Origin: a virus
DNA length: 24,851 nt
Strand: one strand, 5' to 3'
Virus record (IMG/VR): IMGVR_UViG_3300025093_000114
Span: 1-24,851 of that record
Shown here: positions 3 through 21,470 of the stretch, in pieces
Position numbering within the stretch: position 1 is the first letter of the stretch
Layout: each line of letters starts with the position of its first letter
Made by a program: the position numbers and the translations under genes
The notes under the pieces: model-generated
Seen by the model: the letters and a program-made list of their open reading frames with translations, nothing else
Database searches by the model: none
Told to the model about the DNA's origin: nothing

Positions 3-155
3 ATCCAGCGAAGGACGCGCGAAGCCATGGAGCCATCACGAGTTGATCTTAGTGAAGGCGCATTGCCGGAGGCACCTCCTCCTCCGCAGCAAGAGCCACT
101 TGATGAAACCCTCCCCATCCAGAATCCAGCAGAGTACCAAGAGGAAGAAGCCTAA
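3..155 (+). CDS. C-terminal end of an unidentified upstream protein (partial)
   Basis: An open frame enters from the left edge and stops at TAA 153-155, sharing one base with the portal ATG (TAATG). The visible 50 residues are rich in Pro, Glu and Gln (for example EAPPPPQQEP and the ending QEEEA), so this looks like a disordered acidic tail rather than a folded domain. In tailed phages the gene before the portal is often the large terminase subunit, but nothing visible here (no ATPase or nuclease motif) confirms that. An internal ATG at 27 could instead start a separate 42-aa protein; AAGGA at 10-14 is rather far upstream. Stop-start overlap with the portal suggests translational coupling. 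Confidence 0.6.
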   Translation: MQRRTREAMEPSRVDLSEGALPEAPPPPQQEPLDETLPIQNPAEYQEEEA

Positions 156-2008
156 TGTTGACCAAGAAACAAATGATGGGACTGATCGATACCCACAAGA
201 GTCGGTCTTTCATTGACCAGCGAGAGTGGGACAAGGTCCGCTGCTGGTACACGAGTGATGCGTCAAGCAGCTACACCCAAGATCTTCCCCAGGGTGCTGG
301 AAGTCCTGCGGACTCCACGGACGATTTGTCTCTGGAGACCAACTACCCTTATGCATTCGTGGACACGATGGTCGCGAACATCTGTCCGAACAATCCAGAA
401 GTTACTGTCAACGCACGACGCAAGCACCTTCACGAGCCTGCAAAATATCGAGAGGCACTGATCAATGACACCTTCCGTCGTTCGGGCATTCATCGGATTC
501 TATGGCGAGCAGCTACGATGGCGAGCGTCTACCCACGTTCTTTCGTCAAAGTGGTTTGGAACTTTCGTAAACGCTCTCCCGACTTCCTTGTTGTGGATCT
601 CCGTCATGTTTGGTTTGATCTCGCTGCCGAGCGTTGGGAGGACATTCGGTATCTGATTGAAGTCACGGTTCTCACTCGGGAGGATTTCAATGCCCGCATC
701 AAGGGCAAAGGAAACAAGAGTGACCGTCCCTACGATCCAGAAGTCGCGGAGAAGGCCCAGTTCGGTGCCTATCCAGAGTGGCTGCGAGACCGTCTGAAAG
801 ATCAGTCCCTCATGAACGACTCTTCCAAAGAGGTGTTCGAGTGGGTCACGGTCTATGAGATCTACGACTTCTCGGGCGAAGGTCGCTACTACCACTACCT
901 GGAAGAGCAGGAGGAGCCGTTGTTTGCTGGCGAGCTTCCCTACCGATTCGCTCGCAATCCTTTCTACCGTCTGTCGTTCAACGACAACTTGCAGGACATC
1001 GGCGGTCTGAGTGACGTGACTCTGATCCAGCCAATCCTTGAGCGCTTGAATGAGTTGGACACGCTGATGCTCTGGTTTGCCCAGACGGCGATTCCGATCA
1101 CCATGCTCAACTCCGGGCTGGTAGACAATCCCGAGCACATTCGCAATCAACTGCGTACCGCAACCTCTCCGGGCTCAATCGTAGAGGTGGCAGGAAAAGC
1201 AAATGCCTCGATCCAGGACATCATCGGACACACCCAAACCCCAAGCCTCTCGCCGGAGTTCATCGCTACCCGAGACCGATGCATCCAGATCATCGAGTTT
1301 ATCTTGGGTATTCCACAATACTCTCGGGGAGTGGTCGGTGTGTCTGACGTGGCAACTGAAGTCGCCCTCGCAGATACTGCGACAAGGACTCGCAACGGTC
1401 GTCGGCAGAAAGAAATCTACGACCTGATCGGTTGGCAATCACAAACCATCATCGGGCTCTACGAGGAGTTTCTCGCAGACGACGAGATTCTTCCTGTTCG
1501 CATGCTGCCTAATGCAGAAGTCGTCGAGATCACCCGGGCATCTATGATGGCTCGCGAGATTCTCGCAAGTCGCGGCGAGGAACCTTTGGAGTATGACTAT
1601 GAAGCTGTTCCATACTCTCCCACCGAAAACAACCGGCTGGTCCAACTTAGGAACTTGCAGCAGTTCTTCCCGCTTCTCCAAGAGAACTCACAGGTTGATC
1701 AGAACACCCTCATTCGTAAGCTCTGCGAGCTACTACAGATGCAGGATGTCCTCAAGAGTTCAGAGCAGCTTGAACAAGAAGCTGCCCAAGCGCAGCAGCA
1801 GGCCGCCCAGGCGCAAGCGAGTTTAGCGCAGCCTCCCGCTCCCGGTGGACAAGACACCATTGCAAGTGGTGCTCTGCCCCCTGAGACTGAGCCGATGCTT
1901 CCTCCCAATCCCGCAGGCTTTGGCCCGGGTGGTGGAGAGGCCAGTCCTCTGACTGGATTCGGTGGCGCTCCGTTTGATCTCGATCCAAACATTCCAAGGA
2001 ATCAGTAA
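155..2008 (+). CDS. Portal protein (head-tail connector)
   Basis: This 617-aa protein is the likely dodecameric portal through which DNA is packaged and ejected and on which the head is nucleated. Portal-like features are an N-terminal helical region followed by a stretch beginning NYPYAFVDTMVANICPNNP near residue 64. The central segment (GGLSDVTLIQPILERLNELD near residue 285) has the look of the long portal helix region. The C-terminus has a Gln/Ala-rich helix (AQAQQQAAQAQAS, about residues 545-560) that could form the inner barrel, then a Pro/Gly-rich tail. Length fits podovirus portals, which are commonly larger than siphovirus ones. The start is the ATG in TAATG, with GAGGAAG just upstream. 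It is the first of an ordered portal-scaffold-coat-adaptor-nozzle series, which strongly supports the call. Confidence 0.92.
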   Translation: MLTKKQMMGLIDTHKSRSFIDQREWDKVRCWYTSDASSSYTQDLPQGAGSPADSTDDLSLETNYPYAFVDTMVANICPNNPEVTVNARRKHLHEPAKYREALINDTFRRSGIHRILWRAATMASVYPRSFVKVVWNFRKRSPDFLVVDLRHVWFDLAAERWEDIRYLIEVTVLTREDFNARIKGKGNKSDRPYDPEVAEKAQFGAYPEWLRDRLKDQSLMNDSSKEVFEWVTVYEIYDFSGEGRYYHYLEEQEEPLFAGELPYRFARNPFYRLSFNDNLQDIGGLSDVTLIQPILERLNELDTLMLWFAQTAIPITMLNSGLVDNPEHIRNQLRTATSPGSIVEVAGKANASIQDIIGHTQTPSLSPEFIATRDRCIQIIEFILGIPQYSRGVVGVSDVATEVALADTATRTRNGRRQKEIYDLIGWQSQTIIGLYEEFLADDEILPVRMLPNAEVVEITRASMMAREILASRGEEPLEYDYEAVPYSPTENNRLVQLRNLQQFFPLLQENSQVDQNTLIRKLCELLQMQDVLKSSEQLEQEAAQAQQQAAQAQASLAQPPAPGGQDTIASGALPPETEPMLPPNPAGFGPGGGEASPLTGFGGAPFDLDPNIPRNQ

Positions 2009-3856: not shown

Positions 3857-4936
3857 ATGGCAATCAGTCCTGATGTAGTCGCAACCGCACTGCAAGATCT
3901 TGCTCCTGGGTACTCGGAACTGTTCTCCCTCTGGCATCCCCTCATGGAGCGGGTTGTGAAGCGGGGCAACGTGGACCGAGCTACACTCAAGGGCCCGTAT
4001 CGCGAGTTTGTGGTTGTTTCCGGCGGTCCTGGAACCGTCACCCAAGTTACCACTGGATCCGAAGTGATCGCTGGTGGTCGTACCCAATCTGCCCAGCGCG
4101 GAAGCTCCTATGCTCCCCGCCTGATCTACGCGTTTGACGTCCCCGGCAAGGACCTCGCAGAGGCCAATGGCGAGAACGATCTGGCCAAGATCATCAAGGC
4201 GTACCCCGAGTTGGCTCTGTCCGACTTCCACGAGCGTATTGCTGATCAGCTTGGATCCGGAAACGGAACGGGCGTTGGTGGTTTCCTCACCCTGAACGGT
4301 GATTCAACCTACAACCCCGGCCTCGCTGCTGCTCGTACCGGTGCTTTCGAGTTCCTGACCCAGGCTGCCCAGGTTGCTGCTGCTAACAGCATCTTCGGTC
4401 TGAACAAGGGAACCACCACGGGTTGGTACAACCAGTACGGTCAGATCTCGTCCTTCGCTACCGATGGTCGTTCGACCATGCGTCAGGTCTACTACCAGGC
4501 TTCCCGTCAGGGATCCAAGGCCAGCGGTCCTGTCGATCTGCTTCTCGGTGATGAGGGCTCGTACCTCAACTACATCGAGGATCTCGACGATCAGGTTCGC
4601 GTGATGCGAGTTGAGGGCGACAAGGCTCCGAAGCAACTTCGTCAGGGAATCCCCTTCCTTGAGGCAGACTTCTTCCTTGAGCAGTCCATCGACCTCACTC
4701 AGTTCAGCACTGGTGGAGCCAACAACGGCGTCGTCTACATGATGAAGACCGATACTTGGCACATGTACACCCTCGGACACGATTCGAACATGGAGACCAA
4801 GGGCGACTTCGCCGTTCGCGGTCCTATTCGTATCCCCGAGCAGGACATGTGGCGTTACGAGTACGTCCTCAACATGGGAATGTACTGTGACCAGCTTCGT
4901 GCTAACGGTGTCGTTACCGGCGGCGCTACCCCATAA
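3857..4936 (+). CDS. Major capsid protein (HK97-fold type)
   Basis: A 359-aa protein placed directly after the scaffold and before a decoration-type gene, the canonical coat position. A probable N-terminal arm is followed by alternating strand/helix segments, a helical region with LALSDFHERIADQLGSG (about residues 117-133) that could be the spine-helix area, Gly-rich loops (GNGTGVGG, NNG) and a C-terminal WRYEYVLNMGMYCDQLRANG (about residues 332-351) before a short Gly-rich end. Codon choice differs sharply from neighbours: CGT/CGC for Arg, GGT/GGC for Gly and frequent C-ended codons, as expected for the most highly translated virion gene. GAGGA at 3844-3848 lies eight bases before the ATG. 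The HK97 fold is assumed from the tailed-phage context, since no signature residue proves it. Confidence 0.9.
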   Translation: MAISPDVVATALQDLAPGYSELFSLWHPLMERVVKRGNVDRATLKGPYREFVVVSGGPGTVTQVTTGSEVIAGGRTQSAQRGSSYAPRLIYAFDVPGKDLAEANGENDLAKIIKAYPELALSDFHERIADQLGSGNGTGVGGFLTLNGDSTYNPGLAAARTGAFEFLTQAAQVAAANSIFGLNKGTTTGWYNQYGQISSFATDGRSTMRQVYYQASRQGSKASGPVDLLLGDEGSYLNYIEDLDDQVRVMRVEGDKAPKQLRQGIPFLEADFFLEQSIDLTQFSTGGANNGVVYMMKTDTWHMYTLGHDSNMETKGDFAVRGPIRIPEQDMWRYEYVLNMGMYCDQLRANGVVTGGATP

Positions 4937-7439: not shown

Positions 7440-9599
7440 ATGGCAGATACTCGGTTTCGTCAGAAATCTGATGTCCTCCCGATTCGGGTAGAAGCGGGAC
7501 AACTGATCCTGCCTGAGACTGTCGGGTCTCGGATCGAAAACATGTTCCTCACAGAAGAAGGAACACTTCGATCTGTATGGGGGCCTGCGCCTTACGTTCC
7601 TGATTACGGCAATGGCTTTCCGACCTACAACAACCTGAAGGGCATCTTTCATGCTCGTCTTGGTCCAGAGGGCGAGAAAGACATTCTTCTCATTCAAGAT
7701 TCGAATGAGATCAAGGTCTTCGAAGGATGGGAAGCGGGATCTGCCACTCCAAACGATGTCTGGGATATCCTGGTTGGCCCCGCAGCTACAGCAGACCTTC
7801 AGGCAAACATCGGCTTTGACTCCAAGCCTCGCTTTCCCTGCCAGTTCGAGTCGACTCCAAACGGAATCGTGATCATTCCGGCAGGAGAGTCTTCCCGAGC
7901 GTTCTTCTACGATGGCGACACTGTCCTACCTCTGGGCTATGCCACGGCTCCAGACTCCCCCTCGGGCATGGGTCCTGACTCTTCAGGCACTCTTTTCTAT
8001 GACCACGATGGAGGAAATCTACCCACCTGGGCAGGAAACGGACGAGTCGGAAGCTTGGCCCTGGATTCGGTATCTACAACCAACTTGGCTCGTACCGCAG
8101 AGGCAGGCTACCAGTGCGCTGTTCAGTGGATCGATCTCTGGGGCAACCTTTCTCCCCTTTCGGGCAGAAGCTCTACAGTCGTTATCCCAGGCAGCCAATC
8201 TTCGGACACGCCTGATGAGGAACTCAAAGTTCTCTTCTGGACAGGCATTGATACTGGACCTCAAGGAACTGTTGGTCGTATCTTATCGAGAACTCGCGAT
8301 GTCCTGAACTCAGGAACTCTCGATCTGTTTGAGATGAGGAACTACTTCTCGGGCGGTTTCCTGTCTGCTTCTACGATGCCAGATAACATCGGAACGGGAT
8401 TCCCCGACAACATTCCAGATTCTCTGCTGCTGTCAGAGCCCAAGAATCCAGTCGCAGTGACTCCATTCAAGCTCTACACGCTTGCTTTCGGTCGCGGCTG
8501 GGCAGCTAACTTTGAAGACGAGCCGGGCAAGCTGCACCCGTCATTGCCCGGTAGGTGGGGAACATTCCTCGAAAACGAAGAGATCTATCCAGATCCTCGG
8601 GGAGCCGAGATCACTGGCATGTGCCAGATCCAGGACGGTCTGCTTGTTTTTACGGAGAACACCACCTTCTTGATCGTGATCTCTTTCGGAGGAGAAGGCT
8701 TCCAGACGAAGACTCTGCATCCTACGATCGGATGCGTTGCCCCTTCTTCGATCAAGACTCTGCCCAATGGACAGGCCATCTGGCTTGGACGAGAAGGCTT
8801 TTACAGTTGTACGGGATCGGGAGACGGTCTTACGGTCCAGCTTGTTTCTCGTCCAATATCCGCCGAGCTTCGTAAGATCACCCGGTCCCGTGCTCTCCAA
8901 TCTGCGGCTGCGGTTGATGTCCGAGAGAAGAGGTATCGTTGCTGGGTTCCGATGGAAGGATCTCTCCAGAACAATGTTTGCTGGGAGTTCGACGGCCAAG
9001 GTTGGGCTCGAAGGACTGAGGTCAAAGCAGCAGATGTGTGCGTAACTCAAGATCACCGAACCTACATGCTCACAGCAGGAACCTCGCGAGTTGTCGGAAA
9101 TCTAAACGATCTTCAAGGTGTTTGGCTCTTAGACCATGAAGTCCAGTCCTGGAATCCAACTCCCCGGGCAGCAAGGATCCAGACTTGTTGGCTCCGTTCA
9201 GGCTTTGCAGGAAAGCGCGGAAGTCCTACTACGATCTACTTCTGGTTCCGGGAAATGTCCTCGGGCACCATAAACATCGAAATCCAACGAGACTGGAAGT
9301 CGAAAGTTATCTACACGGAGACCGCACCTCTCCACCCGACTGACGATGTTCCTCCGTTCTGGGGAAGTGCAATCTACGGAGGGAATGATCCAGAAGGAAA
9401 CCCTTGGGTCTGGGAAAAGCGCCGCCCTTACTGGACTCGGGTAGATGTTGCGATTCCTTCTTGTGAAGTGTTTCGCCTGAACATTACTCTGAGCAAAGAG
9501 CTTTTCGGAGATGACGCTAATCCGGGGTTCTGGGACTTTATCGGAATGTCCTTCGACGAGGTTCCACATCCAGATACCTTCAGGAGTTATCCGAAATGA
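7440..9599 (+). CDS. Tail tube nozzle protein (beta-propeller)
   Basis: A 719-aa protein equivalent by position and pattern to podovirus nozzle proteins such as T7 gp12 and P22 gp10, which form the hexameric tip below the adaptor. Blade-like strand repeats are visible: GTLRSVWGPAPYVPDYGNG, YNNLKGIFHARLGPEGEKDI with LLIQDSNEIKVFEGW, then MCQIQDGLLVFTENTTFLIV. A characteristic run follows at about residues 425-460: HPTIGCVAPSSIKTLPNGQA followed by IWLGREGFYSCTGSG and VSRPISAEL, the 'genuine surface checked, show what the object is' strand pattern common to nozzle propellers. A second Ig/FN3-like unit seems inserted at about residues 220-315 (AGYQCAVQWIDLWGNLSPLS, RILSRTRD, DLFEMRNYF). GGGAGA precedes the ATG by four bases. 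The TGA overlaps the next ATG (ATGA). Confidence 0.85.
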   Translation: MADTRFRQKSDVLPIRVEAGQLILPETVGSRIENMFLTEEGTLRSVWGPAPYVPDYGNGFPTYNNLKGIFHARLGPEGEKDILLIQDSNEIKVFEGWEAGSATPNDVWDILVGPAATADLQANIGFDSKPRFPCQFESTPNGIVIIPAGESSRAFFYDGDTVLPLGYATAPDSPSGMGPDSSGTLFYDHDGGNLPTWAGNGRVGSLALDSVSTTNLARTAEAGYQCAVQWIDLWGNLSPLSGRSSTVVIPGSQSSDTPDEELKVLFWTGIDTGPQGTVGRILSRTRDVLNSGTLDLFEMRNYFSGGFLSASTMPDNIGTGFPDNIPDSLLLSEPKNPVAVTPFKLYTLAFGRGWAANFEDEPGKLHPSLPGRWGTFLENEEIYPDPRGAEITGMCQIQDGLLVFTENTTFLIVISFGGEGFQTKTLHPTIGCVAPSSIKTLPNGQAIWLGREGFYSCTGSGDGLTVQLVSRPISAELRKITRSRALQSAAAVDVREKRYRCWVPMEGSLQNNVCWEFDGQGWARRTEVKAADVCVTQDHRTYMLTAGTSRVVGNLNDLQGVWLLDHEVQSWNPTPRAARIQTCWLRSGFAGKRGSPTTIYFWFREMSSGTINIEIQRDWKSKVIYTETAPLHPTDDVPPFWGSAIYGGNDPEGNPWVWEKRRPYWTRVDVAIPSCEVFRLNITLSKELFGDDANPGFWDFIGMSFDEVPHPDTFRSYPK

Positions 9600-10303
9600 G
9601 TTGGAAGTATCCTAAGTACCGAGTGAGGAACACTCAGGTTGTTGATCTCGAAGATGTAAATGCGAACTTCAAGGAGTTCGCAGACGAGCTTGGAGGACAA
9701 CTCAACGAGCACAACTGGAAAGAGAATGCCATCGTTGCCACGACTTCTTTAGAGAAGGATGCGGCCTATGCCTGGCACTCAGCAGGAGCATTCGTCCAGC
9801 GAGGATCAGATTGGCCTCAGCCTGTGACAGGAGGATCTCCGCAAGACCAGCTTATTTCTGCTCGACCAGTATGGACTCCGCTTGATGACTGCACCCTGAC
9901 GTTTACCTCTCCGAACTGTCTCTTGTGGATTCATGGATCTTGTCAGATCATTCAAGGTCCAGTCGATGGAACTTCTGGTTTACCCGACGATACTGGGACC
10001 ATCTGGACCGGTTCCTATTTCGTAGACGTGCAGGTGGCTATTCGCATCGACAACTACGTTGTGCCCGAGTCGATTGTCGGAGGAGTAGAGGTCGATAACG
10101 ACTCCTTCTCTGGGCTCAGGCAGCCGATGATGCCCGTAGTTACCAGTCTCGTCTTTCCCATAACTACCGGGCAGCACACGATTGAGATCGTGGCTCGCAC
10201 CACAGGTGTGGTCGTGGATAAGACTGGAGGTACTCAGGAAATCTCTCCAAGAGGATTCTACGCATCCTGTCGAGAGCTTATGGCCCTGGAGATGAGGAGA
10301 TAG
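9596..10303 (+). CDS. Appendage/fibre-type virion protein 1 of 3
   Basis: A 235-aa protein whose ATG overlaps the nozzle stop (ATGA), with AGGAG at 9582-9586. The N-terminus (VVDLEDVNANFKEFADEL, about residues 15-32, then LNEHNWKENAI) is a helical, Asn-rich segment of the kind that anchors phage appendage proteins. The rest is strand-rich: CTLTFTSPNCLLWIHGSCQI, VDVQVAIRIDNYVVPES, TTGQHTIEIVARTTGVVVD and a final strand ending ALEMRR, consistent with a single jelly-roll/TNF-like domain. It resembles the next two genes in layout: anchor, loop, beta domain, terminal strand. Likely roles are tail appendage, head fibre or receptor contact; none is proven. Confidence 0.7.
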   Translation: MSWKYPKYRVRNTQVVDLEDVNANFKEFADELGGQLNEHNWKENAIVATTSLEKDAAYAWHSAGAFVQRGSDWPQPVTGGSPQDQLISARPVWTPLDDCTLTFTSPNCLLWIHGSCQIIQGPVDGTSGLPDDTGTIWTGSYFVDVQVAIRIDNYVVPESIVGGVEVDNDSFSGLRQPMMPVVTSLVFPITTGQHTIEIVARTTGVVVDKTGGTQEISPRGFYASCRELMALEMRR

Positions 10304-10304
10304 C

Positions 10305-11018
10305 ATGGCTGAGATTTCTTTCGATCCGATTGACCCGCAAGAAGCGTTTACCACAGACTCTCTGAACAACCGCTTTTCTACTGGAACAGGTTCTCTTCAA
10401 GCAGCAATCAATGATGTAGAAGAAGATGCAATCGCTCCAGGAGCATTCAACTCCAGCCATCTGCCTTCTTTGGTGCTGTTCCGAGGGCAAACTGCACAGG
10501 ACGCAGGCGGCCAGTACACCTTCGTAAACTCTCCTTGGCCTGGAGGATGGGCAGTCGTCGACTCTAATGGAGAAACCGGAGGAGGTACCGACTTAGAAGT
10601 TGACTTCGGCGCTACTTACAATCTCTCTACCGGGCAAGCGCAGGCCGTCTTTGTCTTGGCGGATCTGTATGTCCAGCACGTCCGACGTACTACTACGCTC
10701 TACAGTGATCACGATGGAGTTGCTTTCCGCATCCAGGCTTATAACGGAACATCTTGGGAAACGATCACTCGGACTGAGAGGTTCATTTCTGCTCAGATCA
10801 CCGGAGGAGCTGCCGAAGCAAACTCTCGTCAGATCAACATGAAGGTTCCGATCAGAACCTGCATCACTGCTGCGGATCTTACGGGCAACACGATTAGCAA
10901 GGTTCGAGTCCAGGTCGCCGTTCACAAGGGCATTCTCGTGACCCCTCCCCAGAATCCAATCGCTACGCTTCTTTCTCGAACTTTGACCGCTATCGTTCTA
11001 CAATCGACCCACACATAG
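10305..11018 (+). CDS. Appendage/fibre-type virion protein 2 of 3
   Basis: A 237-aa protein starting one base after the previous stop, with GAGGAG at 10294-10299. The N-terminal segment (DSLNNRFSTGTGSLQAAIND, about residues 19-38) followed by DAIAPGAFNSSHLPSL echoes the anchor pattern of its two neighbours. The beta domain contains AQAVFVLADLYVQHVRR, DGVAFRIQAYNGTSWETI, SKVRVQVAVHKGI and a closing strand TLTAIVLQ. No collagen-like repeat, chaperone domain or enzymatic motif is seen. As with the previous gene, the best description is a small beta-sandwich virion surface or tail protein; sequence identity to its neighbours is low by eye, so paralogy rests on architecture. Confidence 0.7.
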   Translation: MAEISFDPIDPQEAFTTDSLNNRFSTGTGSLQAAINDVEEDAIAPGAFNSSHLPSLVLFRGQTAQDAGGQYTFVNSPWPGGWAVVDSNGETGGGTDLEVDFGATYNLSTGQAQAVFVLADLYVQHVRRTTTLYSDHDGVAFRIQAYNGTSWETITRTERFISAQITGGAAEANSRQINMKVPIRTCITAADLTGNTISKVRVQVAVHKGILVTPPQNPIATLLSRTLTAIVLQSTHT

Positions 11019-11026
11019 GAGGATCT

Positions 11027-11761
11027 ATGCCAAACGTTGCTATTCCACCAATCGCGGCCGGAACTTCCAATGGAGACGATGTAGAAGATCGGTTCTACAG
11101 TCCGACTGTCACGGGCACTACTTCTGCCGAGATCATCAACGGACATTTGGATGTTGCCAATCTGGCGGGCTCTGTGAGCATCGACCGCTCTCAGATTCAG
11201 CACGGTGCCCTGTCCCGAGGAAAGACAGAAGGCGGAACGCTGAGTCTCGACTACTTTGGCGAGTTGTTCCCTGCTTGGAATATCGCAGAAGATAGTGGAA
11301 CGATTGCACAGAAGCGTCGGATGAATCCGCTGTACCAGGTGATTCCTGGAGCTTCTGTTTCTTTCTATCTGCCGTTCGATCCGTCTTTCGTAATGTTCTC
11401 TTGGCAAGTTTTCGTTTCTGCCCAGCAGTTTGACTTAGACGATCATGCCTCTCACCCGGCAAATTACTTGCCCGCAAGACTGCGGTTTTTTCTCAACGAC
11501 GGAAGAATCGCCAATCGAATCCTTACAGTGCCCACGAAGTTCTTCAATGCCTCTGACACCACTGGCACTTATGATCGCCACTGGGCAGGACACCACTTGG
11601 CAACCGGTCTGACCGAAGGCTGGAACACTGCCAGCCTCCGGATCGCAGTCGATCCCGGCTACAACGGAACGGGAGGTGGACCAGATTACTTCCCAGATGA
11701 GAGTTCAAACACGCACTGCCGTGTTCGAGTTCGTAATATGAACTATGTAGTGTTTAGATAG
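11027..11761 (+). CDS. Appendage/fibre-type virion protein 3 of 3
   Basis: A 244-aa protein with a strong AGGAGG (11017-11022) that overlaps the preceding stop codon. The N-terminus (DVEDRFYSPTVTGTTSAEII, about residues 15-34, then NGHLDVANLAG and IQHGAL) matches the 'F...iNGhLd..Nl' linker frequently found at the base of phage appendage proteins. The beta domain includes YQVIPGASVSFYLPFDPSF, VMFSWQVFVSAQQFDLDD, ARLRFFLNDGRIANRIL and the closing RVRNMNYVVFR. It ends the appendage triplet and is followed after nine bases by the first ejection-type protein. Function is inferred from architecture and position only. Confidence 0.7.
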   Translation: MPNVAIPPIAAGTSNGDDVEDRFYSPTVTGTTSAEIINGHLDVANLAGSVSIDRSQIQHGALSRGKTEGGTLSLDYFGELFPAWNIAEDSGTIAQKRRMNPLYQVIPGASVSFYLPFDPSFVMFSWQVFVSAQQFDLDDHASHPANYLPARLRFFLNDGRIANRILTVPTKFFNASDTTGTYDRHWAGHHLATGLTEGWNTASLRIAVDPGYNGTGGGPDYFPDESSNTHCRVRVRNMNYVVFR

Positions 11762-11770
11762 GAGTTTCTC

Positions 11771-12532
11771 ATGGCAGAAGATAAAAAGGTTACTGATTAC
11801 GTCGGATCTGGCTTCAAATCCATGGTCGAAGCCAACCGGCAACTCCGAAAGCAAACAGAAGCTCTCAAAGAAGGAACTCTCGGTCCCACTCAAGCCCAGA
11901 AGCAGCAGGCCATGCGAGGTGCTACGGATGCTGCTCAACAGCAAGCAGCCGCTGCTGTAGGCGATGTAGCAGAGATGGCTTTCGGCGGAGCCGGAGGCAT
12001 GATGGGAGGCCAGGCTGCTAAAGCTCTCATGGGCGCAGCACAAGGAGCGGCAGAAGCCGGGACTCAGGCCCAGGTTGCAATCAACGCTCAAGCAGCGCAG
12101 ATGGCAGAACAACGTCGTCAAGAGACGATGGACGCTCTGAACAAGCAGCGAGATGAGGCTATCGAAACGATCAGCAAGCTTACTTCCGGAGGCGGAAAGG
12201 CTCTCGAAGGAGCCGTCGCAGGCCAGCAGGGTTCAGGAGGAGGAGCAGAAGCAGCAGCAGGCATCGCTCAAATGATGATAATGATGTGCTGGGTTGCTCG
12301 TGAAGTCCTCCCCGGGCAGTGGAGAGACTGTCGAACTTACATCCTGTTCGGTGCTCCGAAGTGGTTCCGATCGTTCTACATCAAGAACGGACCCGGGATC
12401 TCAGTGTGGCTCTGCCACAACCCCTGGGCAAAGGTTCCCCTCCGTCCTCTCTTCCGCTACTTTGCTTGGCGAGGTAGAAAGATGGGACAGGAAAATCCTG
12501 CTCTCCTCGAAGCACAATCTCATCTGCTGTAG
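11771..12532 (+). CDS. Internal virion/ejection protein, gp14-like, with C-terminal Cys/Trp-rich domain
   Basis: A 253-aa protein in the place of T7 gp14. The first 165 residues are an Ala/Gln/Gly-rich helix-forming region. It contains a Gly-zipper-like hydrophobic stretch (AEMAFGGAGGMMGGQAAKAL, about residues 66-85) suited to membrane insertion, flanked by charged helices (RRQETMDALNKQRDEAIETI). Residues 168-240 differ completely: MMIMMCWVAREV (Cys173) followed by a Trp/Arg/Phe-rich sequence with APKWFRSFYIKNG and LFRYFAWRGRKMG. I recall similar 'CWVAREVYG...' C-terminal units in environmental phage proteins, often on internal or tail proteins, but cannot verify this here. AGGAG overlaps the previous stop, and the start region resembles that of the gene at 2520. 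A packaged envelope-pore subunit is the favoured role. Confidence 0.65.
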   Translation: MAEDKKVTDYVGSGFKSMVEANRQLRKQTEALKEGTLGPTQAQKQQAMRGATDAAQQQAAAAVGDVAEMAFGGAGGMMGGQAAKALMGAAQGAAEAGTQAQVAINAQAAQMAEQRRQETMDALNKQRDEAIETISKLTSGGGKALEGAVAGQQGSGGGAEAAAGIAQMMIMMCWVAREVLPGQWRDCRTYILFGAPKWFRSFYIKNGPGISVWLCHNPWAKVPLRPLFRYFAWRGRKMGQENPALLEAQSHLL

Positions 12533-12540
12533 GAAATATC

Positions 12541-15357
12541 ATGGCTGAAAACGATAGGAATCTGGCTCTCCTGTACCGGATCGTAGAAGACAATCCAGAA
12601 CTCGCTAAGATGCTGGAAGACCGCGCACAGGACCAGGAGCAGTACCGAAACTACCAGCGGGCTCTTCGTGTAGGAGCCCGAGGATTGACTTTGGAGACAG
12701 CACCGGATCTTCGAGATCGTCAGGAAGCAGCACTCAAGTACCTTCAGTCGATCAATGACGCAGCCGATGATCTTGCCACAGCCTCTACTCCCAAGATGTC
12801 TCCGATCATTGAGGCCATCTTCGGGCTGTACAAAGGAGACATCTCAGGCCGATCAGGAGTCAACCGGGCCAAAGTCACCGAGCTTGGTGATGTTCTTGAT
12901 GATGCCTTGGTGGAGAGGTCTACAGCGCAAGACGAGATCTACGAAGAACCTCTTTCTAAGTTTCCGGATATTCAATCAGAGATTCGTCAGATCGCTTCCT
13001 TGCAGCAGTCGGATCCGGATTCCCTGGCTGAAGCTATTTATGCGGGGATGGCAGACACCTCTACTAATGCAGAACGAGCCGCACTTCTTACTTTCGCGGC
13101 AGATGAGGCAGGACTCGATGCGAATCAACTTAGAGAACTCTTGATCACTAAGGGAACAAGCGCATTAGATCCTTCTCGACGGAGTGAGCTTGGAAGAATC
13201 TTCGATGAAGTAGACTCGGATGTTCAGCTAAATCTCCAGAAGATTGATCGAGCAAACAACCGAGTTCGGGCTGCTTCGAACGAGCTTCTTTCCCAGTACG
13301 GAGGAATGACTGGAGCACAGAGGGATTTCCTCAACAAGATCCAGAGCGCAGTCCTCGGTGGAGACGATGCGATGCTCCGTCAGGCTGTTGGTCTTGAGCG
13401 TCTGGAAGGTCTGCCTGAGACTGAAGCCGCAAAGCAGATGCGACAGATCGTCAACGACATGATCAAGCTCCCCGAGGGCGTTGACTACTGGAAATCAGAC
13501 GTGCAGCATGTTGCGGACATCCTTGCCAGTCCAGCGTTTATGGAAGCCGCTAAGGAGTTCGGATACACCGGACCTCCTCGTGAGGTTCTCCAACGAGTCA
13601 CGCAGAACTATGAAGGCGAAGTCGGACAACTCCGTAAGATGGACGACATCCGAGATGCCTACCGCATCATTGATGGCAACCAGCCAGCAGGGTCTCCCGG
13701 CCGTTGGCTGAAAGCACTGATCACTCGTATCTTCAATCCCAACGAGTACGCACAAGTTGCGCGAGAGGCAGGAAACCCTAACTTCCTGCCTGCTCCCGAT
13801 TCTCCTGAAGAGATTCGAGAAGCAATCGAACAGGGTGTTCAGGAAACAGAAGCAGAAGTAGAAGCCGGAGTTGTTGCTCCCCCTGAGCCCGAGATCCCTG
13901 GGCAAGCTCCCGAAGAAGCTGCTGCTCCCGCTCCAGAAGCTGCTGCCCCAGAAGCTGCACCCGAGGCTGCTCCAGAAGGAGTACGTCGCCGTCCAGGAGA
14001 CGAGGGTCTTCCTTCCGAGGGAACAGTACGAGCCATGCAGCGTATGGCAGATTCCCAGGGCCGTACTCTCCCCATCGGGCAGACAGGACTGTTCGTTCAG
14101 CCTGGGCAAGAGGGACGACTCTTCGAAACAGCAGAAGGACGAGAAGGAGAACTTGTTCCCTTTGCTCCTGATGCGCCTGGTGCAGAAGAAGCAGCAGGAA
14201 TGCCAGCCGAAGGCGAGCCAAGAACTGGAACTGACGGCGTGTATAACTATACGCTCGATCCCGATGGGACAGTTCGCTTCATGAGGCGAGGTCGCGAGAT
14301 TCGCGTAACTGACAGCCAACCAGGAGCTTACTACTCGATTCTTGAAAAAGCATTCGGAGAAGAGATCCCAGAGCGTGCTCGGCCTCTTGTACAAAGAGCA
14401 CGAGACCGACTGGCAGGAGGCGCTACTCCTGCTGACGAGGATGCTGATCCAGGAGTTTTGGGAAGCGTGGCCCGGGAGGTAGCGGGGATGGCTGGAGTTC
14501 CTCTTCCTGGAGGTGCTGCGGCAGCAGCCGCTCCCGGTGCTCCTGCGGAGCCAACGGTTTTAGAGCCGGAAGAGGTTCGATCTTCTACTGGAGAACCGGA
14601 AATCCCAAAAGACATTCTCGGCTCTTTTGCAGGCGGACCTCCAATAGAAGAGCCTCCTCCCGGAGAATCGGAGACCGAACTTCCGCCGCCTCCTCCAGAG
14701 CAATCACTGCGGCCAAACGAGCTTCCTGAGCCTGAGACTTCTCCGGATGTCCCAGAGCTTCCAGAACTGCCAGAATCAGACGTTGCCGCAGAAGAAGAGC
14801 AGTACCAGAGAGACTACGCTTCTGGAAGGCTTGGCCAACAAGCTCGAAACGAAGCAATCATCCGGGCCAGTGGAGCCGACGATATTTCCCTGGAGTCAGC
14901 ACTCGCTACGACTGAACCCGAGGAGACTGCGCCGGAAGTGCCAGAGCTTCAAACCTCTGAGCAGCCAGATGAGCTTCAACAGTCTGAGCCCGCAGGTGCT
15001 GGTCCAGAGCCAGGGACTTCTAAGCAAGCACCCTCTTCAGCCGAGAATCGAGAAGCTCGTGAAGACGTGACAGGCAAAACTCGTAAAGCAGCCCGCGAGA
15101 GGGCAGATGCTGCGAGCGCTGCGAGCTTAGACCAAGCCGCCCAAGAAGCGGTTGCCGCAAAGATGACTCCGAGACCTCTTACCTCAGAAGAGAAAGCAGC
15201 CCTGAATATGAGTGCAAACGCTGCCGCCGTTCCTGGTGCTGGACAAGCAGCAGTCAGCACGGGACCGCAGACTCAGAAAAAGAAAGACGACTCAGAAGGG
15301 TTGGCGGCTCTCAGAAACATCCAGGGAGTTCTACAGAGTATTCCGGGTCGACCATAA
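12541..15357 (+). CDS. Internal virion/ejection protein, gp15-like, Pro/Glu/Ala-rich
   Basis: A 938-aa protein in the position of T7 gp15. Residues 1-430 are predominantly helical and charged (for example MLEDRAQDQEQYRNYQRALR). A low-complexity Pro/Ala/Glu region follows at about residues 440-483 (EAAPEAAPEGV). A compact ordered island lies at about residues 565-612, with YNYTLDPDGTVRFMRRGREI followed by YYSILEKAFGE. A second, longer Pro/Glu/Ser-rich stretch extends from about residue 665 to 860 (EEPPPGESETELPPPPPEQS). The C-terminus has a short helix near ALRNIQGVLQSIPGRP. No enzymatic motif is visible. Large helical plus disordered composition fits a protein stored in the capsid and threaded through the tail. 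AGGAAA precedes the ATG. Confidence 0.65.
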   Translation: MAENDRNLALLYRIVEDNPELAKMLEDRAQDQEQYRNYQRALRVGARGLTLETAPDLRDRQEAALKYLQSINDAADDLATASTPKMSPIIEAIFGLYKGDISGRSGVNRAKVTELGDVLDDALVERSTAQDEIYEEPLSKFPDIQSEIRQIASLQQSDPDSLAEAIYAGMADTSTNAERAALLTFAADEAGLDANQLRELLITKGTSALDPSRRSELGRIFDEVDSDVQLNLQKIDRANNRVRAASNELLSQYGGMTGAQRDFLNKIQSAVLGGDDAMLRQAVGLERLEGLPETEAAKQMRQIVNDMIKLPEGVDYWKSDVQHVADILASPAFMEAAKEFGYTGPPREVLQRVTQNYEGEVGQLRKMDDIRDAYRIIDGNQPAGSPGRWLKALITRIFNPNEYAQVAREAGNPNFLPAPDSPEEIREAIEQGVQETEAEVEAGVVAPPEPEIPGQAPEEAAAPAPEAAAPEAAPEAAPEGVRRRPGDEGLPSEGTVRAMQRMADSQGRTLPIGQTGLFVQPGQEGRLFETAEGREGELVPFAPDAPGAEEAAGMPAEGEPRTGTDGVYNYTLDPDGTVRFMRRGREIRVTDSQPGAYYSILEKAFGEEIPERARPLVQRARDRLAGGATPADEDADPGVLGSVAREVAGMAGVPLPGGAAAAAAPGAPAEPTVLEPEEVRSSTGEPEIPKDILGSFAGGPPIEEPPPGESETELPPPPPEQSLRPNELPEPETSPDVPELPELPESDVAAEEEQYQRDYASGRLGQQARNEAIIRASGADDISLESALATTEPEETAPEVPELQTSEQPDELQQSEPAGAGPEPGTSKQAPSSAENREAREDVTGKTRKAARERADAASAASLDQAAQEAVAAKMTPRPLTSEEKAALNMSANAAAVPGAGQAAVSTGPQTQKKKDDSEGLAALRNIQGVLQSIPGRP

Positions 15358-15368
15358 GAAGGTAAAAC

Positions 15369-18300
15369 ATGGCAACTCCAGAGCAGCAAACTTCTGTACT
15401 CCTCGAAGATCAAGAAGAGGAGACGCCTGAGTCCCAGGAACAGGAAGAAGAGACCATCTCGTTCCAGGCTCCGCAGCCTCCTGCGGTCCAGGACCGGGGT
15501 GCTGCTTTGGCTGGAGAGGACATCGATCCTGCTGCTTACTTAGGGTATGACGCCCGAAGCGCGATCCGAGATCGAAGCCCTGTTGTACAGCAGCAGATCG
15601 ACATCTCCCGGGCAAAGAGGCGAGCCGGACCGGCCAGAGCGCAGCAGAGGGGGACGGAGTTCTACGCTCCTCTTCGGCAGACTGTGGGTACAACTCCCGT
15701 TCCTCTCGATAGGCCCTGGAGTACGCGAGAGGAACAAGAGCGCGAATCACCTGATGTCTACTTAGACTCAAACGACCCTCCGGAAGGTTGGCAACCATCT
15801 CCCATTGAGGTCAATCGCCTGGTGACGGAAGGACTCTTGTCTCCCGAAGAAGCAGGAGATGTGAATACTGTCTGGCGGGCAGGAAGAGCTTCAGCGAGAA
15901 ACCAAGGAGGCGCTTCTTGGTTCGGGCAGAAGACAATCGAAGGAGAAGTTGCTCGTGAGCTTTCTCCGGAAAGCGCAATCCAGAAAGCGATGGTCTCGCA
16001 GATTCCGCTGAACTCACGAGAGATCCGAGGCGACATTGTTCTCGATACGCACAAGATGTTTCGGCAGACTCGTGAGTACTGGAAAACTCAGTTTACGGAA
16101 GATCTTCTCCGGGAAGGAAGATCTCCTTCGGATCTGTCTCCGGAAGAAGCAGAAGAACTCAACAAGCTGATCGACCAACGAGCCCTGAACTCCATGGGTG
16201 TGTTCATGAACTCCGGTGGTCGGATGTTCTACACGGATGCTTTCGACCGAGACATCACCAAAGACATCGCAGATGCAGCCTTCGGAACTAAGTTCATCCG
16301 AGCAATCGCGGCTCCTACTACTTACGGAAGGATCGGTGCTCAAGTCCCGGGCAGTGGCTATGGAGCACAGGCAAGTCGGCTAAACCCCGTCGTCAACCCA
16401 GTCACGATGTCCTCCGAGGGACTCCTCTCTCGTTTCGGTCGATTCGCTCCGTCGACTTTCTTCACGCCTAAGATCTTCGGAGGTCACGAGATCGGAAGCG
16501 AAGAGTGGGTCGAAGCCATCCGGGCAGGAGACGAGATCACCGAGCACATCGGTGACATTGCCCGAAGGATTGACGGAGTAGAACCAGGCGGAGAGACCAG
16601 CACGTTTGCGAAAACCGTCGCAGGGGTTGGAGTCCTAAGCTTGATTGTCCTGGAACCGGACATCGTTACTCTCCTGACCCTGCCTGCCAGTGGTCCAGTA
16701 AAAGCAGCAAAGCTTGCCCAGGCAGGTAGGCGAACTCGGAGAGCAGCAAATCGTCTTCGAGAACTTCAGCAAGAGTTCGACGATGGATTGAGTATGGCCA
16801 AAGCCCAGCGGGCTCTGGACGACTATGATCGAGCCCTGATGTTGGCTGTAAACACGCCAGCAATCACCCGTTTCCAGCAGATGTCTGCTACTCGTCGAGC
16901 CTCCGGAAGTGGCATGAAAGGCTACGACGACATGTACGAAACGGCAGGAGCGGCTCGCGAAGAGGCAGAAAGACTCCGCAAAGAACTCGATGAGTTCGCA
17001 GAGTCTGCAACGACTGCCGAGCAGAAAGCCATGGTCGAGCTTCAAGAAGCCCGAGTAGCTGAGCACGAACTCTGGGCAGCCTATACTGAGCGAGAACTCG
17101 TAGAAGGAGAGAAGAATCTTTTCCTCGAAGCTCTTGGTTTGTCACCAGAAGATGCTGCAAAGATCCGAACGGAACGAGGCGTTCCAATCGATGAGCGAGC
17201 CGCGAGGCAGTTAGAGCGAGCAGCTTCTCTGGCTAAGAAGCAAGAGAAGGCAATCCGGAACAGCAAGGAGTACAACAAACTCCTGTCGGACTACGATAAG
17301 AAAGCCAACGAGCTTGGCGAGATCTTCAACACTCTCCAAGAAGGATTCTTGGGAATCGAAGAAGCCCAACGAAAAGGCGGCGGTCTTCGAGTTGGGTGGG
17401 AAGTTCTCTCTACGAAAGGCAACCGCCTCTCCCGGGCAGTCACTGAGACTTCAGAGCCTTTCTCCATTCCAATCTATGGACAGAAGGTCCGACTTCCTAC
17501 TCCTGCGGGTGGATCCGTCATCCGCACAGTAGAAGGCATCCGCATTCGAGGGCCAAAGTCCGGACGATTGTCTAAGGGCAACGACAATCAGATTGTTCTT
17601 CAGGTCAAAGGCAAGAGCGGAGAGATTGAAGAGTACGTCCATCCGTATCGACTGCCCGAGAATGCAGCCAGAAACATCCGATCTAAGATCAAAGAGTTCG
17701 AGGAGATGCACAAAGTAGTCGCTGCTGAAGGCGGACTCATGGAGCAGATCGTCGAGTTGCGTAGAATACAAGACCTGGGCAAAGAACGGGCTGCACATCT
17801 TCGATTAGGCGGTGCTGCTGATCGAGTAAAGAGGTTCCAGAGGGCAGAAGAAAAGCTCGCAGAGGCGTCTAAGAAGTACAAAGAAGCAACAAAAGCAGCC
17901 GGAGTTTCGCAGAAGGACTTCGACAAGCTTTCTCGGAAGTTCGCCAAGAAGGGAGAAGAAGTCTTCAAGGCAGAACAGAAGGCCAGCCAACGCGCTCTCA
18001 TGCGAGAGATCTATGCAAAGAGCATCGATGACGTAGCTTCTGGTCTGGAGAATCTGCACAAAGCAGGACTCGAAAACCTTGGAGTCGTCGGATTCAAGAC
18101 GCCTAAGCAGATTGCGAAGAGCATGAAGGCAATCGCGGATTCAGATTGGAACGCACTCCGGAGTTTCGGAACGAAACTCGACGAGGGCCAGGTTGCTCGT
18201 GCCTACCGTAACCTGATGAAGTCTGCGACTAAACTCATCCCGGGCAGGAGAGGCGAACAAGCAACCTTACAGGTTGACGCAGACAAACTCATGAAGGGAT

Positions 18301-21300
18301 TGGCTTCTGAGCTTGGCGGACCTAAGAATCTTGCCGAGATCACAAAGGCTTCTCCTCCCCTCAGAAAACTTCTGGAAAGAGTGAAGACCGAAGGGTCTGA
18401 CATTAGCCTCGATCTTCGAGAAGCTTCTGCTCTACAAGAAGAGATTCAGAGTCTGATTCGAACAGGTCAAGCTCAGAGACTGTTCACCGATGATGTAGCC
18501 TGGGGTCGAGCCGTCAACGAAGCTTGGCGAGACATCGGCATCGAGAAGAAGAGCAGCAAGTCTCTGATTCGAAGGTTTGCTGGAGGTACCCTTCGGAGCA
18601 TGTCGAATGGATTCCAGGAAGCCTCTGGCATGATCCCGGGCTTCAACATCGAAGACCGAATCGGACTGGTAGGCGATCAACTCGAAGAGGCATTCAAGCA
18701 GACAGAACTCCTGCTCGCAGAGGGCAAACAAGAACTTCTCCAGTGGGCCAAGGCCGATGGCTTTGGTGAGACTGCGGAGGAGAAGCTTCTTGGAATCCTG
18801 GACTTCCAGGGAGATCTTCAGCTTCCTACTGGTCCTTCCCGCTGGTCAGTCGCCAGTGGCATGGGCACTCCTTACCAGAAAGGAAAGCTTGGAATCCTGG
18901 CAGACACTCGAATCGATCCGGTCGAACAAGCTCGGCTGGCTCGGGCGGAAGCCTCCAGGTCTAAAGAGATTCAAGATCTGGAAGACGGTCTCGTTGCTCG
19001 GATCGAAAGCCTAAAGGCAGAAGGCAAACTCAAAGAAGGACTCACTGAAGAGTTCCTTGATGAGATGAAAGATGCTGTTGCTCGTCTAACAGATGAGATG
19101 GCAAAGGAAGGATTCAAGCCCGTGTCTGCAATCACGGGCGCACCGATCAGCTTGGTATCTGTCTCTCGTATGTGGGTTCCACGAGGCGAAGTTACCGCAG
19201 TCGCTAAGGAAGCAGGTCCTCTCTTGATGGGACTTGCGAAGAAGTACTTAGATGAATCTCCGGGCTTTGGTCCTACCAAGAATGCTCTTGGAGAAGTCAT
19301 CGACGTGGGCTTTGCCGAGAAGATGCGGAAGGCGACTTACGCAATCATCGGCAACACCGAGTACGACGTAGCTCGTGCTTACGCATTCGCCAGCTCTGGC
19401 CTCGTGACTTCCGCGACTCTCAGCACGCTGAAGAATCGTATGGCGAAGTCTTTCGGAACATTCAGTCCGGAAGAGGCAGCAGACATCAACCGTCTCTTGG
19501 CAGGAGAGTCCTTTGAGGATGTCGGAGACATCGACAAGGCAATCCAGAACCTCAACCGTTTGGGTATGCCGTTCACTCAGAAAGACTTCCAGGCTGCCCG
19601 AGGAGTACCGATTGTCTCTTCCGCCAAAGAAGCTCGCTCGAAGAGACTCGTGGAGATCGGAGCCGGAAGCTATGCTCCTGAGAACCTGATCCGATCTTTG
19701 GATGTTCTTGCAGGAAGAATCGCCAAAGAGTTCGATCCGTTCCCGAGACAGGTCACTGGCAAGAACGCGGCCCTGGGTATGGTCGATGATTACCTCCGGT
19801 TGTGGAAAGGATCTGCTGTTACGGGTCTCCTCGCTCCGAACCCTCGATACTGGACAAACAACATGTTCGGTGACTTCGTGCAGATGTGGCAGGAAGTTGG
19901 TATAGCTCGGGCAGGATCTCTCAGCTTCGTCAACGGAATGACGAACATCCCGTTCTTCGGACGAGGTCTGCAAGAGAAGACGCTGTTCATGGCGGAGCGA
20001 GTTGCAGGAAAGTCTGGAAAGGGAGTCGCCCTCCCGGGCATGGTAGACACGTTCTTGAACCCGCATCTCGCTCGAATCTACAAAGGCGAGAAGGGAGAGT
20101 TCATCACAAAGAACGGTGACGTGATCACCTTCGATCAGGCTCGTCGCTATGCCCTGGAAGATGGAATCAACGATACGTTCGTTCGCGAAGAACTCCTCGA
20201 CACCTTCTCCCGGGCAGCGGCCCAAGGTGAGAAGTCGATGCCGAACTTCTTCAAGGAGTGGCAGGGACTGATCTACAACCATGCTTCGATGGTCCAAGAC
20301 CGTCAGCGAATGGGCCTGTATCTCGACAGCCTCCAGCGAGGAATGAGTCGCCAGGAAGCCAAGAAGACAGTTGACCGTGCTCTCTATGATTGGAAGCACG
20401 GAATCTCTGAGACCGAAGCAATGATCATGACTCGCTTCGTTCCTTTCTGGAGATTCTACCGTCTGTCCATGAAGCAGATGGGCTCAACTCTCCTTGAGCC
20501 TTTCGTTCGCAATAACAGCGAGTTGGCTCGTAAAGCCCTGACGGGCGACAGTCGTCTGGCTCGACTTCGACAGAACTTGCTCATCTTCCCGAACTTGCCA
20601 AACTTCTTCTACCAGGATGGCACTTACGAAGGCATGAGCATGAACGAGAAAGTGGATGCCGTGGCTCGGGAACTCTATCCCTCCTGGGCAGATACTCGAC
20701 CGAAGTTCGGCGTCATTCCTTTCGATCCAGTTCGCCGTCAACGGTACAAAGAGATCACCGGAAAAGACTACACACATGCCATGATTTTGGCTCCCCAGCA
20801 CACAGGCATGGACATGTTTGACATGACCACTGCTTTGTTTACCGGAGTCGGCATGATGCTCGGGAAGCTTCCGGGAACCTCTTCTTTCGGGGCAGGATTC
20901 AACGCTCCTTCAGATGTCGGTGCTCGATTCTTCGAGCCAATCTTGGGCGCAGCTTCTCCTCCATTAGAGATGTCGATGCGTGCCCTGCTCTCTACGATGA
21001 ATGCAGATCTGGATTACCAAGTGCGAGGCTCTTTCCGGAGCATCAGCCCAGAAGAAGAGACAGTTTGGCGCACCATCCCGGGCCTAAGCTCCCAGCTTCG
21101 AGAAGATCCGGAAACTGGTCGAAGCCAAGTTCCGATTGCCACTTACATGGCATGGCGAATGCTTCCGATCGGATCTACTCAGGCTACTGCTTGGATTGGA
21201 GCAACCACCTCTCCTGAGTGGGAACAGGGATTCCGAAAAGGATTCATCGCTGCAACCAAGCGACTGACCGGTTTCATGCGAGAGTCTCCATTCAACATCC

Positions 21301-21470
21301 AGGACGAAGTAGATGGACGCATGCGGGACATCCGAAGGGAGTTCACCGAGTTCATCAAGTCGGCGCCTCCAACCTTCGAGCCTTACAGCGGCGGAAGAAT
21401 CGAGGGTCTGGGAGAAACGCTCCAGCGCAAGGTCGAGCAGAGAGGAATGAGAAGCATCCTCGACAAATGA
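15369..21470 (+). CDS. Giant internal virion/ejection protein, gp16-like (2033 aa)
   Basis: The largest gene of the window, in the position of T7 gp16 (1318 aa) but much longer. Layout: acidic Gln/Glu/Pro tail (1-45); mixed region with SPEEAEELNKLIDQRALNS; hydrophobic segment at 417-438 (VAGVGVLSLIVLE...TLLTLP); long coiled coil (about 445-665); a beta-rich piece (FSIPIYGQKVRLPTPAGG); a second Lys/Glu coiled coil (about 760-890); then a C-terminal half with two landmark motifs. NPRYWTNN (1491-1498, preceded by WKGSAV) and FVPFWRFYR (1690-1698, after LYDWKHG) resemble motifs I recall from very large phage and plasmid 'polyvalent' proteins with LPD38-like regions. No lysozyme, transglycosylase, protease or polymerase signature was seen. 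AAGG lies six bases before the ATG. A trans-envelope DNA conduit role is inferred. Confidence 0.72.
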   Translation: MATPEQQTSVLLEDQEEETPESQEQEEETISFQAPQPPAVQDRGAALAGEDIDPAAYLGYDARSAIRDRSPVVQQQIDISRAKRRAGPARAQQRGTEFYAPLRQTVGTTPVPLDRPWSTREEQERESPDVYLDSNDPPEGWQPSPIEVNRLVTEGLLSPEEAGDVNTVWRAGRASARNQGGASWFGQKTIEGEVARELSPESAIQKAMVSQIPLNSREIRGDIVLDTHKMFRQTREYWKTQFTEDLLREGRSPSDLSPEEAEELNKLIDQRALNSMGVFMNSGGRMFYTDAFDRDITKDIADAAFGTKFIRAIAAPTTYGRIGAQVPGSGYGAQASRLNPVVNPVTMSSEGLLSRFGRFAPSTFFTPKIFGGHEIGSEEWVEAIRAGDEITEHIGDIARRIDGVEPGGETSTFAKTVAGVGVLSLIVLEPDIVTLLTLPASGPVKAAKLAQAGRRTRRAANRLRELQQEFDDGLSMAKAQRALDDYDRALMLAVNTPAITRFQQMSATRRASGSGMKGYDDMYETAGAAREEAERLRKELDEFAESATTAEQKAMVELQEARVAEHELWAAYTERELVEGEKNLFLEALGLSPEDAAKIRTERGVPIDERAARQLERAASLAKKQEKAIRNSKEYNKLLSDYDKKANELGEIFNTLQEGFLGIEEAQRKGGGLRVGWEVLSTKGNRLSRAVTETSEPFSIPIYGQKVRLPTPAGGSVIRTVEGIRIRGPKSGRLSKGNDNQIVLQVKGKSGEIEEYVHPYRLPENAARNIRSKIKEFEEMHKVVAAEGGLMEQIVELRRIQDLGKERAAHLRLGGAADRVKRFQRAEEKLAEASKKYKEATKAAGVSQKDFDKLSRKFAKKGEEVFKAEQKASQRALMREIYAKSIDDVASGLENLHKAGLENLGVVGFKTPKQIAKSMKAIADSDWNALRSFGTKLDEGQVARAYRNLMKSATKLIPGRRGEQATLQVDADKLMKGLASELGGPKNLAEITKASPPLRKLLERVKTEGSDISLDLREASALQEEIQSLIRTGQAQRLFTDDVAWGRAVNEAWRDIGIEKKSSKSLIRRFAGGTLRSMSNGFQEASGMIPGFNIEDRIGLVGDQLEEAFKQTELLLAEGKQELLQWAKADGFGETAEEKLLGILDFQGDLQLPTGPSRWSVASGMGTPYQKGKLGILADTRIDPVEQARLARAEASRSKEIQDLEDGLVARIESLKAEGKLKEGLTEEFLDEMKDAVARLTDEMAKEGFKPVSAITGAPISLVSVSRMWVPRGEVTAVAKEAGPLLMGLAKKYLDESPGFGPTKNALGEVIDVGFAEKMRKATYAIIGNTEYDVARAYAFASSGLVTSATLSTLKNRMAKSFGTFSPEEAADINRLLAGESFEDVGDIDKAIQNLNRLGMPFTQKDFQAARGVPIVSSAKEARSKRLVEIGAGSYAPENLIRSLDVLAGRIAKEFDPFPRQVTGKNAALGMVDDYLRLWKGSAVTGLLAPNPRYWTNNMFGDFVQMWQEVGIARAGSLSFVNGMTNIPFFGRGLQEKTLFMAERVAGKSGKGVALPGMVDTFLNPHLARIYKGEKGEFITKNGDVITFDQARRYALEDGINDTFVREELLDTFSRAAAQGEKSMPNFFKEWQGLIYNHASMVQDRQRMGLYLDSLQRGMSRQEAKKTVDRALYDWKHGISETEAMIMTRFVPFWRFYRLSMKQMGSTLLEPFVRNNSELARKALTGDSRLARLRQNLLIFPNLPNFFYQDGTYEGMSMNEKVDAVARELYPSWADTRPKFGVIPFDPVRRQRYKEITGKDYTHAMILAPQHTGMDMFDMTTALFTGVGMMLGKLPGTSSFGAGFNAPSDVGARFFEPILGAASPPLEMSMRALLSTMNADLDYQVRGSFRSISPEEETVWRTIPGLSSQLREDPETGRSQVPIATYMAWRMLPIGSTQATAWIGATTSPEWEQGFRKGFIAATKRLTGFMRESPFNIQDEVDGRMRDIRREFTEFIKSAPPTFEPYSGGRIEGLGETLQRKVEQRGMRSILDK

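Follow-up and report, generated by a model that had tools for sequence, protein, structure and literature searches.

The stretch analysed here, referred to as the window, comprises positions 1 to 24,851 of the IMG/VR virus record IMGVR_UViG_3300025093_000114 (24,851 nucleotides), and the gene under study is an open reading frame (ORF) at 15369..21470 encoding a protein of 2033 amino acids (aa), hereafter P0001; the features given below in the form start..end lie on the + strand of the window. P0001 is likely to be a cargo-free ejection protein that occupies the T7 gp16 slot and ends in an LPD38-like C-terminus, being the largest of a set of three (253, 938 and 2033 aa) in a lineage of short-tailed phages, with genomes of about 54 kb, that had not been described before. 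It belongs to a family of which nearly all members occupy the same gene slot and some carry cargo domains, and the P0001 copy is probably a purely structural version. The family is a new and distant branch, previously unprofiled, of the known giant ejection proteins.

More than 30 relatives, 19-83% identical, were collected from IMG/VR plus one metagenome-assembled genome (MAG). A direct search with P0001 returned two records, including the window's own genome; seven additional genomes, with P0001 copies 19-41% identical, were reached via portal relatives, and alignment-based searches raised the total above 30. Most complete copies consist of one ORF of ~1,890-2,510 aa, two being longer (2,806 and 3,389 aa), and the shorter copies are truncated by contig ends; in L096 (G019), the homologue is broken by one in-frame TAG. 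Nearly all copies with upstream genes on record are preceded by a gene of 502-1352 aa and, before that, usually by one of 159-319 aa (~160-430 aa when nearly all copies are taken together), sizes which match the T7 gp14-gp15-gp16 order, the exceptions being G015, L071 and L082. P0001 is itself the last gene of such a set, and the T7 gp16 slot to which it had been assigned by an earlier first-pass annotation, made from the sequence alone, proved to be conserved across the family. The gene order common to the compared genomes runs from portal, scaffold-like, capsid, adaptor-like and nozzle-like genes through three proteins of ~240 aa to the ejection set. When the portal, 938-aa and 2033-aa proteins of the window were searched by tblastn, no relative was found among 50,697 isolate phage records, and with P0001 or divergent family members as queries, one MAG contig was the only relative obtained from isolate phages, plasmids and bacterial genomes.

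The intact 2033-codon ORF reported by that annotation was confirmed: it starts with ATG, lacks internal stops and is preceded by an AGAAGG-like ribosome site. Compared with the 83%-identical homologue of L001, differences at codon positions 1, 2 and 3 number 287, 161 and 837, and the gene is therefore under purifying selection. P0001 is without a match in Pfam, PHROG, NCBIfam and the PDB, and profile scans matched it to no lysozyme, protease or polymerase family, in agreement with the earlier claim that such signatures are missing; a PDB sequence-profile search returned only weak Rab and coiled-coil matches, judged to be due to chance. A candidate PF05396 domain at residues 816-923 (E 0.005, under the cut-off) was rejected, being coiled-coil-like and found in one of nine scanned members. 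The hydrophobic segment at residues 417-438 (16617..16682) is where the annotation had placed it, and the highest hydrophobicity in the protein is reached by a 19-residue window beginning at 417-420. All 20 homologues that cover this candidate membrane-inserting segment retain it, and in 14 of them it is the top hydrophobic segment; in most family members it is followed by [E/D]PD. As for coiled coil, which had been put at about 8% of the length within the first half, a crude heptad scan recovered one clear stretch at residues 520-556 (16926..17036), but this amounts to only ~3.6% of the first half.

Conservation in P0001 is far stronger in the C-terminal third than elsewhere, and alignments of 22 and 33 members together with a structural model delimit a conserved C-terminal unit at residues 1225-2033 (19041..21467). 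Two aromatic blocks had been singled out in the first pass as apparently conserved, NPRYWTNN at residues 1491-1498 (19839..19862; PNPRYWTNN in the family) and FVPFWRFYR at 1690-1698 (20436..20462; PFxRF in the family), and both were found at those positions. Their conservation exceeds chance, since by mean conservation over 33 relatives they rank 10th of 802 and 54th of 801 equal-length C-terminal windows, respectively, but within FVPFWRFYR only F1693 and R1695 are invariant. Two stronger motifs had been missed, namely VQDRQR at 1642-1647 (20292..20309; VQxRQR in the family) and ALYDW at 1671-1675 (20379..20393), in which Y, D and W are invariant. Across the 33-member alignment, the invariant residues are G1486, P1490, Q1505, R1645, R1647, G1658, A1664, Y1673, D1674, W1675, F1693, R1695 and P1933.

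Structure prediction supports the view that the C-terminal ~800 residues form a divergent LPD38-like helical unit. Residues 1225-2033 were modelled with AlphaFold2 (AF2) from 22 homologues, giving a predicted local distance difference test (pLDDT) of 62 and a predicted template-modelling score (pTM) of 0.50, and a Foldseek search of this model against BFVD, a library of predicted viral structures, returned 14 matches at E <= 0.001. Matches named 'large polyvalent protein associated domain-containing' reached down to E 1.6e-7 and unnamed ones to 8e-27, while a match named LPD38 was obtained at E 0.005. For comparison, the core of true LPD38 (PF18857) sequences was modelled independently with AF2 (pLDDT 73) and searched against the same library, where an 'internal virion protein' from cyanophage S-CBP2 was among its matches (E 0.004). 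The top-50 lists of the two models have 11 BFVD entries in common, one of them named LPD38; Foldseek did not print the aligned ranges, and the matches to shared targets are likely to overlap, A0A096XER9 being 318 residues long. From the element order, the shared Foldseek targets and region-restricted hhalign, a putative LPD38-like core can be placed at residues 1427-1747 (19647..20609), comprising a hairpin, two helices, the NP helix, a 33-residue helix, an 11-residue helix, the YDW loop and the PFxRF helix. In both models, the NP-initiated helix has 19 residues, the long helix with the arginine motif 33 and the next one 11, with the PF-motif helix coming later. Thus, an LPD38-like predicted fold is found in P0001, both models being of moderate confidence. 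Restricted to the core, hhalign gave E 0.0045 against LPD38 and came out just outside the shuffled null, the score being equalled by none of 60 shuffles, or by one of 60 with another choice of window.

Several results weigh against this reading. The fold matches of the C-terminal model are only moderate, with template-modelling scores of 0.2-0.4, and a fold search of the PDB gave nothing under E 0.7; since the model lacks a PDB match, the structures of T7 gp16 and of the N4 virion RNA polymerase (vRNAP) lend no support. PF18857 was detected in none of 35 family records, with the positive control detected, and remained silent in further family scans at E<=10 and 0.1. The whole-length profile comparison with LPD38 fell within the block-shuffled null, and sequence profiles alone are no proof of the link between P0001 and LPD38. 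Moreover, an SLT-type peptidoglycan hydrolase was found in none of 34 family phage records, T7 gp16 serving as the positive control. Neither sequence nor profile similarity to T7 gp16 was found, and hhalign likewise gave nothing for N4 C2, the full N4 vRNAP and phiKMV. An internal virion or ejection protein whose C-terminal unit is a new fold, resembling LPD38 by convergence, would fit the silent Pfam model and the null-level global comparison, but this account is rather unlikely in view of the 11 shared fold-search targets, with one bearing the LPD38 name, and the matching element order and motif layout. The ejection protein with an LPD38-like C-terminus is thus preferred. The earlier suggestion of an ejection protein of distinct architecture is supported as regards ejection by the slot, the lack of a visible enzyme, the polyvalent-type fold matches and the LPD38 analogues; the architecture is distinct only in part, because the C-terminal unit is LPD38-like.

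The relatives also reveal where cargo can be accommodated. Alignment with homologue G014 (2421 aa) locates an insertion site, empty in P0001, at residues ~993-1009 (18345..18395), where G014 is longer by ~300 + 150 residues, which include a zincin HELLH domain (HELLHAAT). This segment resembles parts of the N4 vRNAP, of DarB-like proteins and of internal virion proteins from phiKMV-like phages and Pradovirus, and it corresponds to the zincin metallopeptidase described for N4 C1 (PMC12633501; PMC5512222). The zincin HExxH motif occurs in three relatives, G014, L078 and L107. In the last of these (L107:3875-12292, 2806 aa), it is accompanied by pentapeptide repeats at residues 1470-1615 and an ART-PolyVal domain at ~1683-1832, all located N-terminal to the C-terminal unit. 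The pentapeptide repeats are similar to Qnr/MfpA-type repeats, and in another relative's genome an 829-aa ORF (L073, at 11015) encodes a separate protein with ART-PolyVal matches. A mosaic distribution of such domains across ejection proteins is already known (PMC8954989). In P0001, profile scans recognised neither an effector domain nor a G014-type insert; several unrelated effector domains per chain, a feature of polyvalent proteins, are present in L107 and missing from P0001.

These domains bear on a different account, according to which P0001 would be an injected effector, that is, a polyvalent protein acting in the cytoplasm, with a host-takeover or anti-defence domain that went unrecognised in its middle region and a slot that reflects packaging only. 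The description of LPD38 proteins as polyvalent proteins co-injected with DNA (PMC5512222) and the zincin, pentapeptide and ART domains of the relatives point in this direction. Nevertheless, P0001 shows no recognisable effector domain, and cargo-bearing and cargo-free members alike keep the gp14/gp15/gp16 order as well as the hydrophobic segment, which makes an effector role unlikely, somewhat more so than a convergent fold. That P0001 is the tape-measure protein of a long-tailed phage, as might be suggested by its great length, its richness in helices and the weak match of one homologue to tape-measure phrog_167 (E 0.1), is very improbable, given that the profile matches in the structural block are to portal, capsid and tail/virion proteins, none being to a tail tube, sheath or tape measure, that the conserved C-terminus is globular and has invariant residues, and that cargo insertions plus extra upstream sequence, not repeats, account for lengths of up to 3389 aa. 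Finally, a vRNAP or derivative of the N4 gp50 type is hardly credible and was rejected, as the match of G014 to a vRNAP PHROG (E 4.7e-16), a match of the kind named in the first pass as refuting, which came up for this one relative, is confined to the zincin insert, common also to phiKMV-like internal virion and DarB-like proteins, and does not involve a polymerase domain, while P0001 has no polymerase signature and hhalign with the full N4 vRNAP was empty.

Regarding the genomic context, the window is 99.95% identical, in reversed orientation, to part of a 53,910-base IMG/VR contig (G002) with an exact 123-base direct repeat at its ends; this terminal repeat indicates that the contig is a complete genome, and the phage genome measures ~53.8 kb. 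A TerL-like terminase, a helicase and a portal are encoded by this contig, together with a family-A DNA polymerase whose N-terminus is a uracil-DNA glycosylase domain. In L005, a complete relative of the window, an 892-aa ORF (L005:7569-10247) combines an N-terminal uracil-DNA glycosylase with a 3'-5' exonuclease and DNA polymerase A. Within the window, the portal protein (617 aa, 155..2008) was identified by phrog_332 (E 2.8e-13) and phrog_156 (E 1.3e-11), the major capsid protein (359 aa, 3857..4936) by phrog_9953 (E 3.7e-8), and a 719-aa virion structural protein in the position of a podoviral tail nozzle (7440..9599) by phrog_3287 (E 5.2e-8) and phrog_511 (E 1.6e-5); by sequence, neither the adaptor nor this nozzle candidate has a PDB relative. 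Three adjacent proteins of 235-244 aa at 9596-11761, whose order is kept in most of the family, are probably tail appendages and showed no mutual relatedness by blastp. The gene in the gp14 slot (253 aa, 11771..12532), a candidate outer-membrane partner, encodes an Ala/Gly-rich protein that is moderately hydrophobic near residue 162. At residues ~171-235, it carries a Cys/Trp-rich C-terminal block, CWVAREV...W...R...APKWFRSFYIKNGP...P.AKVPLRP, which resembles a conserved appended tail. The gp15 slot is occupied by a 938-aa candidate periplasmic-tunnel partner (12541..15357), which is fast-evolving, with homologues of 502-1352 aa; two of these (L062:1515-4679 and L063:938-4036) bear PG_binding_1 (E 7e-18), which the window's protein lacks.

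By analogy with T7, N4 and JC1, a short tail, a location in the virion, ejection, membrane insertion and participation in a channel may be expected for P0001. In the most likely scheme, P0001 and the 253- and 938-aa proteins would be packaged in the capsid, and P0001 would leave through the tail at infection, ahead of or along with the DNA. The three ejected proteins would then assemble a transient passage through the envelope, in which P0001 would lie at the inner membrane and extend into the cytoplasm. The segment at 417-438 is a candidate for membrane insertion and the LPD38-like unit for virion or tunnel assembly, and together they probably contribute to the DNA passage at its inner-membrane end; the LPD38-like unit would also retain P0001 in the virion or ejection pathway. 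The stretch preceding the C-terminal unit, around residue 1000, is a site where some relatives bear effector domains.

A giant ejection protein is in itself ordinary; less so are the predicted fold link to LPD38, at the edge of sequence detection, and the presence of cargo-bearing and cargo-free members in one gene slot. It is possible, though short of probable, that the LPD38-like unit represents a general delivery chassis of short-tailed phages, with branches mutually unrecognisable by sequence, effectors plugged in front and a bare chassis in the P0001 branch. If true, this chassis would bring T7-like, Bcep22-like and the new phages together, their giant internal proteins forming one system. 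Little is understood about the giant ejection proteins of short-tailed phages, most of which go unnamed in environmental data. The present family supplies a large alignment in which some residues are invariant, and its cargo-bearing sisters share a slot with a cargo-free member, so that delivery and cargo parts become separable and testable. It also suggests that the delivery part is LPD38, a domain whose function is so far listed as unknown.

LPD38 proteins, which have been described as phage-type polyvalent proteins injected with DNA (PMC5512222), are among the closest known parallels. In the T7-like Pelagibacter phage HTVC034P, the LPD38 protein is gp44 (1229 aa, 162 bits), preceded by tail tubular A and B, an acetyltransferase, an internal virion protein B-like gene and a 580-aa gene, which places it in the T7 gp16 slot. 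BcepIL02 gp70 (4667 aa) has an LPD38 C-terminus (599 bits) and is the third gene, after two virion-associated proteins; in the Bcep22-like podovirus JC1, the gp70 homologue and its two upstream partners were detected by mass spectrometry in CsCl-purified virions (PMC9144972). P0001 resembles these proteins in the C-terminal position of the unit, the predicted element order, the shared fold-search targets, the motif layout (NPx[YF]...N...D, an R-bearing long helix and an F-x-x-Q helix), its place as third of a small-medium-giant gene set and the upstream cargo of some members. It differs in that its family is undetected by PF18857, has additional helices and a beta hairpin separating the first motif from the second, and possesses VQxRQR and ALYDW as specific motifs, with no detectable cargo in P0001. 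With T7 gp16 (internal virion protein D), it shares the slot after gp14- and gp15-sized genes, the rank of largest ejection protein and a candidate membrane segment, but P0001 is longer (2033 versus 1318 aa; published gp16 homologues span 609-1337 aa, PMC8954989) and lacks an SLT transglycosylase domain. The phiKMV-like and Pradovirus internal virion proteins (phikF77 gp41 and DoCa9_43) occupy the same slot and carry a zincin segment like that of G014, beyond which no similarity was detected. In contrast to N4 gp50, the virion RNA polymerase, P0001 has neither polymerase domain nor zincin, and no profile match to C2; however, both are the third, giant protein of an ejection operon, and the zincin (C1) of N4 gp50 lies just ahead of a large helical C-terminus, as it does in some relatives of P0001.

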